Positions 62,175 through 64,000 of a stretch of 64,000 nt of DNA are shown in pieces. The position numbers and the translations under genes were made by a program. The notes below the pieces were generated by a model. That model had not been told where the DNA came from, searched no databases, and was given only the letters and a program-made list of their open reading frames with translations. Every line of letters begins with the position of its first letter. Positions within the stretch are counted from its first letter, which is position 1. Source of the DNA: Planctomycetota bacterium (GTDB taxonomy: Bacteria > Planctomycetota > Planctomycetia > Pirellulales > UBA1268). The DNA lies in assembly GCA_016872555.1 (NCBI GenBank), contig VGZO01000015.1:1-64000 (forward strand), in the 5' to 3' direction.

Positions 62175-63941
62175 TCAGAACGGGATGCCGTCGGTGCCCG
62201 ACGGCTTCCCGTCGTCGTCAGGAAACGAATCGCCGTCGGAGGTCAGTGGGCCGTCGCCGGGGCGGAAGCGGCGGCGCGGCGGCTTGAGTGGTTTGGGGCG
62301 GCGGTCCGCCCCCGGCGGTTCGGCGGCGGCCTCCTTGGCGAGCCGCGCGAGGGCGCCGTGTCCGTACGCCGGCGCGAGGTGCACCTGGAAGGCCGGCGTC
62401 GCCCCGTCGCCCGAGACCACCGTCGCGGCCGGGCCGAGGAGCGGATGGGGGCGGGGATTGGCGATCTCGCCGGGGAGGAACACCGGGCGGGCGAACGTCT
62501 GCCAGCCGCCGAGGACCGCCAGACCGCCGTCGTCGTCCGGGCCGATCGCCGTCGGCGCGATACAGGTCGCGATCCCCGTGGCGCGGGAGATCAACTCGGC
62601 CGTCACCATGTCGAGGCCACCGCCGAGGGCGATCTTCGTCTGGAAGCCCGAGGCGACGGTGTCACCATCGCGGCCGTAGATCGCCGGCAGCTGCGCCAGC
62701 GACTGCGTGCCGGCCACGAAGGAGAGCCGCATATCGCGGCAGGTGTGGAGGAGGTTGGGGAGATCGGGCAACGGCCCGGCCGCGGCCAGCTCGTCGATCG
62801 CCACGAGCGTCTTGTGGGGGAGGCAGCTCGAGGGGCTGCTCCGCGCCGTCTCCTGGAGGGCATGGAGGAGGTCGCCGAGGAGCAGGGCGATCACGACCCG
62901 GAGGTGGACGATGTCCTGCCCGTCGATCTCGACGACGAGGACCCCGCCATTGCGGGCGAAGGCCCCGAAATCGACCTCGTGGGTGCCGAGGAACGGCGCG
63001 AGCTCGTCGACGAAGGCAGTCGACTCGGCCACCGTGTTGGCAACGGTCTCGCCGTTGCTGTTGCGCTCCACGTGCCGGGCGAAGCCGCGCAGGAACGGCG
63101 ACCGCCTGTGCATCCGGGCGAAGTCCTCGTAGAACCCGCCGACGATCACGTCACGGAGGTAGGGGAGCGTGCAGGCCTTCGCCGGGAGATCACGGCCCAT
63201 CGCCTCGATCGCGAATTTGAGGAAGTCCGCGGCCTGGTTGTAGGCCCACACCCCGCCGTCGTGGCGCGACGGGCCCCCGGCCGCCGACACGAGGAACTCC
63301 GCCAGCCGCTTGGCCCGCACGATGTCGGTGCAGGTGGCCAGCGGGTTGTAGCCGAGGGAGCGGTCGGGGGACCGCGGGGCGACGAGCATGAACTCGTCGC
63401 CGCGGCCGAAGGCATGGGCGAGGCGGCGGATGACGCGAGTCTGTTTCTGCCCCTTGACGTTGATCACGACCACCGCCCAGCGTTGCTCGAGAGCGTGGAC
63501 GACCGACGGGAAGGTCACCGACTCGGTCTTCCCCGATCCCGAGCGTCCGATCACCAGCAGGTTCGGCGACTGGCGACCGAGCGGGAGCGGCAGCCCGAGC
63601 GAGCCGACGACCCCGGGCTTCGGGTCGTGGGCGATGGCGAACGAGGGCAGCAGGCGGACGTGGTCTTCGGGAGCGGCATCGGCCGCCGCCTCGCGGCGCG
63701 CCAGGTCGGCACTGCCGGCCGGCACGCCGTTGCCGTAGGGACCGTCACCGAGGAACGTGACCCCTGGCGTGGTGAGGAATCCCGGCGTGGGGAAAAGAAT
63801 GCCCTCCCAGAACGCGAGTTCGTCGCGCTTGCCGTGCCGGTCGGGTCGCCGCCAGCGGTTGGGATCGTTCGGCCGACCGCGGTCGGGACGCGGCGGTTCT
63901 TCGTCGGGAGAGTGGTCGTGATTGGATCCGGAGTCGAGCAA
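62175..63941 (-). CDS. Soluble VirD4/TraG/TraD-like ATPase
   Basis: The 588-residue protein resembles the conjugative coupling proteins of type IV secretion. Walker A is GRSGSGKT at 132-139, Walker B is LVAIDELAAAG at 379-389, and GTQSLAQL at 411-418 is the sensor-like glutamine segment. It lacks the N-terminal transmembrane anchor of typical VirD4. Instead it has an Asp/Pro/Arg-rich disordered head (1-40) and a charged low-complexity tail (535-588) ending in an acidic stretch (SFPDDDGKPSGTDGIPF). No relaxase, mating-pair gene or integrase lies in the window. It may be a DNA- or protein-pumping ATPase of another system. Its start is uncertain near the right edge. Confidence 0.8.
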   Translation of the reverse strand: MLDSGSNHDHSPDEEPPRPDRGRPNDPNRWRRPDRHGKRDELAFWEGILFPTPGFLTTPGVTFLGDGPYGNGVPAGSADLARREAAADAAPEDHVRLLPSFAIAHDPKPGVVGSLGLPLPLGRQSPNLLVIGRSGSGKTESVTFPSVVHALEQRWAVVVINVKGQKQTRVIRRLAHAFGRGDEFMLVAPRSPDRSLGYNPLATCTDIVRAKRLAEFLVSAAGGPSRHDGGVWAYNQAADFLKFAIEAMGRDLPAKACTLPYLRDVIVGGFYEDFARMHRRSPFLRGFARHVERNSNGETVANTVAESTAFVDELAPFLGTHEVDFGAFARNGGVLVVEIDGQDIVHLRVVIALLLGDLLHALQETARSSPSSCLPHKTLVAIDELAAAGPLPDLPNLLHTCRDMRLSFVAGTQSLAQLPAIYGRDGDTVASGFQTKIALGGGLDMVTAELISRATGIATCIAPTAIGPDDDGGLAVLGGWQTFARPVFLPGEIANPRPHPLLGPAATVVSGDGATPAFQVHLAPAYGHGALARLAKEAAAEPPGADRRPKPLKPPRRRFRPGDGPLTSDGDSFPDDDGKPSGTDGIPF

Positions 63942-64000
63942 GGGGCACCTGGCACGCGGGAGGTGGCGGGAGGGAAACCGGCGGGCGGATGAGTGGATAA

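Follow-up and report, generated by a model that had tools for sequence, protein, structure and literature searches.

What does a VirD4/TraG-like ATPase do where it has neither a membrane anchor nor conjugation genes around it? The question is raised by a gene at the end of the first 64,000 nucleotides (hereafter the window) of contig VGZO01000015.1 of a Planctomycetota bacterium (GCA_016872555.1; genome G000). A sequence-only reading had suggested either a chromosomal translocation system distinct from conjugation or the margin of an element that continues outside the window. We surveyed the 21 kb of the 85,460-base contig that lie to the right of the window and compared the locus with related genomes, plasmids and phages. 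The ATPase gene stands behind a sigma54-type promoter box, next to a gene for a sigma54 activator, and its product ends in the C-terminal tip of the single-stranded DNA-binding protein (SSB). On balance we lean towards a two-gene, sigma54-inducible chromosomal cassette whose effector would be a DNA motor that works in the cytosol and docks on SSB-binding proteins, and not a part of conjugation.

A Coupling-Protein ATPase without a Membrane Anchor

The open reading frame (ORF) runs from a TTG start codon at 63941, with AGGTG directly 5' of it, to a stop at 62175 and encodes 588 residues; the frame is open over its full length in orthologues that are 98% (G001) and 57% (G003) identical, and it is a genuine gene. 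Three Pfam models match the protein above their cut-offs, namely TrwB_AAD_bind (6.9e-15), TraG-D_C (1.9e-14) and T4SS-DNA_transf (6.7e-11), and the Walker A and Walker B motifs could be located (Table 1), together with a glutamine, Q413, that is conserved in a five-way alignment. The sequence-only reading was right about the motifs, and it was also right that the N-terminal membrane spans of such proteins are missing and that the protein has an acidic tail: Kyte-Doolittle hydropathy gives no transmembrane span in the first 120 residues, where the best 19-residue mean starting within residues 1-102 is 1.02, and the maximum of the protein, 1.95 at residue 344, falls inside the ATPase core.

Among the NCBIfam profiles the ATPase is nearest to the CD1115 VirD4-like group, at 86.3 bits versus a cut-off of 250; the remaining listed models score below this one, and none reaches its curated cut-off. 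The FtsK_SpoIIIE model of Pfam gives 0.15 (11.9 bits versus a cut-off of 24), and the listed Pfam matches include no HerA-type profile and no SSB or OB-fold (oligonucleotide/oligosaccharide-binding fold) domain. TrwB (1e9r, 1gl6; 1.7e-7) is the sole solved structure with a clear sequence match, and in PHROGs a stretch of 47 residues around Walker A aligns to a terminase model (8.3e-4).

A Sigma54-Activator-Type Gene and a Sigma54-Type Promoter Precede the ATPase Gene

Just past the window edge, upstream of the ATPase gene and on the same strand, the contig encodes a protein with a Sigma54_activat AAA+ domain (Pfam). This domain is nearest to RtcR and PspF (NCBIfam RtcR, 4.6e-36), is 31% identical to that of E. 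coli RtcR over 227 residues, and scores 124.8 bits against the RtcR equivalog, below the cut-off of 650; in PHROGs it matches an unnamed family. Its GAFTGA-type loop reads GSFTGA in two of the orthologues and GAFTGA in one, and rpoN is encoded in the same genome (PF04552, 5.5e-60). Within its first ~655 residues the activator contains one domain twice (copies 28% identical across 297 columns, E 4e-17), a duplication that we refer to as the sensor. A sensor profile finds no match in the PDB and chance-level matches in Pfam, none better than 0.08, and a comparison with the CARF region of E. coli RtcR, of low power and made with one sequence, gives an hhalign probability of 0.1%.

The sigma54 -24/-12 consensus is TGGCACG-N4-TTGCW. 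One mismatch from it, TGGCACGCCCTCTGCTT lies between the activator stop and the ATPase start and is aimed at the ATPase gene (L002 4015-3999, minus strand; L002 4154-7873 equals contig 64154-67873); four forms of the consensus find no match in the 64-kb window, past whose edge the box runs. The box of G001 is letter-identical. In G003 the gap has diverged yet holds TGGCACGGCGTGTGCTT in the same role (L011 5454-5470), the one exact match of the promoter pattern in the 9,435 bases of L011, and the -12 GC precedes the ATPase start codon by 60 nt in G000 and by 58 nt in G003. Inverted repeats stand ~30 nt past the activator stop in both diverged forms (Table 1; in G003, L011 5712-5681, minus strand).

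The ATPase Ends in an SSB-Type Tip

All three orthologous ATPases end in D-x-I-P-F, as DGIPF or DDIPF, and the linker that precedes this tip differs between G000 and G003. SSB itself ends in DDDIPF in G000, G001 and G003, the three genomes whose SSB genes were inspected, and a PF00436 search of G000 returns SSB as the sole match. According to the available part of PMC7145534, at least 17 proteins dock on the SSB tip in E. coli. G000 (4.47 Mb in 162 contigs, 97.9% complete) contains D-x-I-P-F followed by a stop at three sites, which belong to SSB, to the ATPase gene and to a protein with a UvrB/UvrC motif, and a control with the reversed pattern returns none. Forty genomes of the family hold 59 such sites; 53 of them have a true stop, and 43 of these 53, at least one in every genome, read DDIPF.

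The tip could be a chance product of an acidic, disordered tail and bind no SSB partners, which we consider improbable. Acid-rich C-termini are general in several types of coupling protein, as stated in the accessible part of PMC7434980, ten of the 53 true-stop sites are not DDIPF (four being the ATPase and UVR-motif genes of G000 and G001, six lying in other genomes), and G013 and G015 each have a second DDIPF site; all of this speaks for coincidence. Against it speak the retention of the tip in 3/3 orthologues while the preceding linker diverged, the reversed control, which finds no site in G000 and two sites in all 40 genomes, and the identity of the third tip bearer of G000 as a UvrB/UvrC-motif protein.

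The last-named protein (PF02151, 7.6e-7) ends in DFGADGIPF and occurs in two genomes (Table 1). The paired DDIPF-stop sites are at C71:15467 and C223:12584 in G013 and at C49:5469 and C150:17362 in G015; in either genome SSB presumably accounts for one of the two.

The Pair Recurs in the Genus, with No Transfer Genes Recognised around It

Over the 21 kb to the right of the window we recognised neither a relaxase gene nor a gene of a type IV secretion system (T4SS); a Pfam scan covered 11 neighbouring proteins, and the other listed ORFs were judged by eye. Genome-wide searches of G000 return the ATPase as the sole PF02534 match and zero matches for VirB4 (PF03135) and for PF03432, the one relaxase family searched. 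Together with the window ORFs, which were listed from 54,000 on, the rest of the window being covered by these genome-wide family searches alone, they bear out the earlier statement that the 64 kb hold no conjugation genes. The suggestion that the gene marks the edge of a conjugative element gained no support from the extension: no T4SS locus, the finding that would have refuted the sequence-only reading, could be recognised to the immediate right, and the order there is activator, divergent patatin, DUF1501, PSD1/PSCyt1/PSCyt2, DUF480 and a large DUF7133/cytochrome protein, of which the genes beyond the activator look chromosomal; kinase, DUF6932 and HsdM genes follow close to the right contig end.

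Three of the four genomes of the genus carry the ATPase, and in all three the activator and ATPase genes are adjacent and co-oriented; G002 (92% complete) yielded neither gene. The flanks of G000 and G001 are alike, and the downstream neighbour is an Na/H exchanger gene in these two and an OprB-type porin gene in G003, whose contig ends at the first codons of the activator, so that the view there is of the downstream side. The relative of the Na/H exchanger in G002 is 34% identical, and therefore no empty site is demonstrable. Conservation, which the sequence-only reading had named as a check, was seen in these three genomes, and no orthologue was found in the other genomes searched: of 59 genomes, G000 included, six are positive, with the three orthologues and three distant matches (~20 to 49 bits), and a scan of genome contigs returns the 98% identical locus (L010) alone. 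An ATPase profile matches seven of 392 genomes of the phylum, the best besides G000 at E 2.7e-27.

Phages gave eight weak matches in 50,697 records, and viral contigs gave no relative of ATPase or sensor to a few short peptide patterns, a search of low sensitivity. Plasmids match the ATPase in 104 of 72,556 records, with ~24% identity in the best 20 of the 104. The activator matches 2,243 plasmid records, the best eight of them through the AAA+ part, and the sensor alone matches none.

These searches bear on the possibility that the locus is what survives of a conjugative or mobilizable element, its coupling protein orphaned or served by a T4SS on another replicon. The closest named family is a conjugal one, 71 of the 104 matching plasmid records are predicted to be conjugative, conjugation with coupling proteins that lack a transmembrane domain (TMD) is described in the part of PMC7434980 at hand, and the assembly is incomplete. 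We nevertheless think a remnant quite improbable: the genome holds no PF03432, PF03135 or second PF02534 protein, the ATPase gene is intact and in two diverged forms is paired with an activator and a promoter, not with transfer genes, the downstream flanks of these two forms differ, and the 20 kb of L002 contain no tRNA gene according to ARAGORN.

VirD4-type ATPases in G033 (L012 6854-8794) and G393 (L042 8913-11663) share a C-terminal extension. By eye, no conjugation genes were recognised among the listed ORFs that neighbour them, and no activator of the present kind was recognised directly beside them. Divergent from the G033 ATPase gene is an ORF of 300 residues (L012 5669-6571, minus strand) with no Pfam match.

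Proposed Mechanism

The sequences themselves show the gene content, the conserved pair, the promoter box, the tip and the lack of the conjugation families tested. From the families of the two proteins we infer the rest: a signal to which the activator responds, its control of the ATPase gene, translocation of DNA, use of the tip for docking, and a function in DNA repair or in defence against foreign DNA. The first gene would encode a sigma54-dependent activator that combines the duplicated sensor domain with an RtcR/PspF-like AAA+ module and its GAFTGA-type loop; on sensing an unspecified signal, it would open the -24/-12 promoter in front of the second gene. The product of the latter, a soluble TrwB/VirD4-type ATPase and presumably a hexamer, would then work on cytosolic DNA. 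Since a copy of the SSB tip closes its tail, the ATPase may be recruited to proteins that dock on SSB, such as RecO, RecQ, PriA or primase, or may compete for them, where there are gaps, stalled forks or DNA coming in.

Several observations weigh against this proposal. Because the G000 box served to shape the promoter pattern, the match in G003 is the one independent match, and 6/200 shuffles of L011 also reach a match at one mismatch or fewer. The inverted repeats of the two forms are unlike in sequence and in distance to the promoter, and this suits a terminator no less than an enhancer. Since two of the three orthologues share 98% identity, the independent evidence amounts to one comparison; the tip is absent from the distant orphan relatives of G033 and G393. 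On the activator side, the C-terminal ~240 residues match no known helix-turn-helix (HTH) family that would supply a DNA-binding domain, and AlphaFold, run on the single sequence of the sensor, obtained no fold (predicted local distance difference test, pLDDT, 33). The accessible text of PMC7434980 adds that TrwB without its TMD has no DNA transfer activity, that TraD monomers without theirs do not interact, and that conjugation also employs some coupling proteins that naturally have no TMD.

Relation to Known Systems

With the type IV coupling proteins (TrwB of R388, VirD4, TraG, CD1115) the ATPase shares the RecA-type ATPase domain, Walker A and B and the glutamine; it differs from them in lacking a transmembrane anchor, in residing in a genome without relaxase or T4SS in the families tested, in scoring far under the listed NCBIfam cut-offs, and in its sigma54-type promoter and SSB-type tip. 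It is like the TMD-less coupling proteins, such as TraJ of pIP501, in having no membrane domain of its own; in what is available of PMC7434980 these act in conjugation, in some cases together with small membrane partners, whereas no transfer genes were found at the present locus. Both the missing TMD and an acid-rich C-terminus have already been published there, and these two features alone are therefore not new. With bacterial SSB the ATPase has in common the D-D/G-I-P-F tip after a divergent acidic linker, but not the OB-fold match.

RtcR and the RtcR-like CARF-AAA-HTH activators, as far as the accessible parts of PMC4012209 and PMC7790460 describe them, resemble the present activator in the AAA+ domain, in the sensor in front of it and in an effector behind a sigma54-type promoter. 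Unlike in RtcR, the sensor here consists of two repeats of ~300 residues, with no CARF similarity detected at the low power of the comparison, the adjacent gene encodes a VirD4-type ATPase, rtcBA is not adjacent, and there is no known HTH. Restriction systems are associated with RtcR-like activators (PMC4012209, in part), and the RtcR-controlled operon is induced by DNA damage (PMC7790460, in part); these relations point both ways, to repair of the cell's own DNA or to action on foreign DNA.

An anti-phage or anti-plasmid system would take the second course: infection would be sensed, sigma54 would turn on the ATPase, and the motor would strip, pump or load SSB partners on invading DNA. In favour of it are a weak match (2.3e-6, 25 bits) between the ATPase and the Mad8 profile, with no mad model matched by any of three neighbours tested, the patchy presence among genomes, and the HsdM (PF02384, 2.3e-97) and DUF6932 genes at contig 82.9-85.3 kb. 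We regard it as rather unlikely, given that neither a nuclease nor a toxin is recognised in the activator-ATPase pair, that HsdM lies ~16 kb past the activator with unrelated genes between, that the patatin gives no more than a 13-bit match to a PADLOC phospholipase effector and looks resident, and that the viral contigs, at the sensitivity stated, and, for the sensor, the plasmids hold no relative.

We return to the inducible cassette. The sequence-only reading had proposed a chromosomal system distinct from conjugation, which stands in so far as the ATPase is not an ordinary conjugative coupling protein, but it missed the SSB-type tip and the sigma54-type promoter beside an activator gene, a gene that lies past the window edge and so outside its view. 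Tentatively, and with less confidence than we place in the cassette itself, we suggest that the pair could form a DNA-repair or genome-defence system of an undescribed kind, a sensor-triggered, sigma54-switched cytosolic DNA pump that derives from a coupling protein and gains access to repair and replication enzymes by imitating SSB. Among the titles and abstract beginnings searched, we found no ATPase-activator pair that joins a sigma54-type promoter and an SSB-type tip to the lack of conjugation genes, and no other SSB-tip bearer of this kind. Coupling proteins are considered good markers of conjugative systems (PMC7434980, in part); if the proposal is true, a coupling-protein motor has been put to cytosolic use and caution is due in counting such genes as mobility markers, and the loan of the SSB docking tip to another protein could be put to the test at this locus.

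Feature Coordinates and Neighbouring Genes

Table 1. Coordinates of the features discussed (window positions unless a contig or locus is named)
Feature	Position	Strand	Basis
VirD4/TraG/TrwB-type ATPase, without transmembrane anchor	62175..63941	(-)	ORF, Pfam/NCBIfam profiles, orthologue alignment, hydropathy
Walker A GRSGSGKT, residues 132-139	63525..63548	(-)	motif read; G, G, K invariant in five-way alignment
Walker B LVAIDE, residues 379-384	62790..62807	(-)	motif read; I382 and D383 invariant in five-way alignment
Acidic tail, last 25 residues of ATPase, net charge -5	62178..62252	(-)	charge count
SSB-type tip D-G-I-P-F and stop	62175..62192	(-)	orthologue alignment, genome pattern searches
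Sigma54-type -24/-12 promoter TGGCACG-N5-TGCTT	contig 63999-64015 (last two bases 63999..64000 in window)	(-)	pattern and L011 box
Inverted repeat, enhancer site or terminator hairpin	contig 64100-64126 (L002 4126-4100)	(-)	direct reading; present in L010 too
Sigma54-activator-type AAA+ gene, 1,239 residues, duplicated N-terminal domain	contig 64154-67873	(-)	translation, Pfam Sigma54_activat, self-alignment
UvrB/UvrC-motif gene, G000	L044 313-1518 (C1, tip 70309-70326)	(+)	PF02151, pattern search
UvrB/UvrC-motif gene, G001	L083 793-1671	(+)	PF02151, pattern search

The HsdM and DUF6932 genes occupy L003 2856-5318, and the contig stops before any hsdR or hsdS comes into view.

The patatin-like phospholipase gene (L002 8072-10312, plus strand) is divergent from the activator gene and was considered as a part of the cassette and rejected, the apparent sensor match in other genomes having come from a part of the query that is antisense to patatin. 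A query that included ~115 residues upstream of the activator start gave 24 positive genomes, 21 of which matched query residues 1-120 only, and the one of these matches that was examined (L018, G010) is a patatin gene; with the upstream part removed, the sensor is matched in one of the 392 genomes of the phylum, G000 itself. The patatin looks resident because its relative in G010 has a different neighbour.
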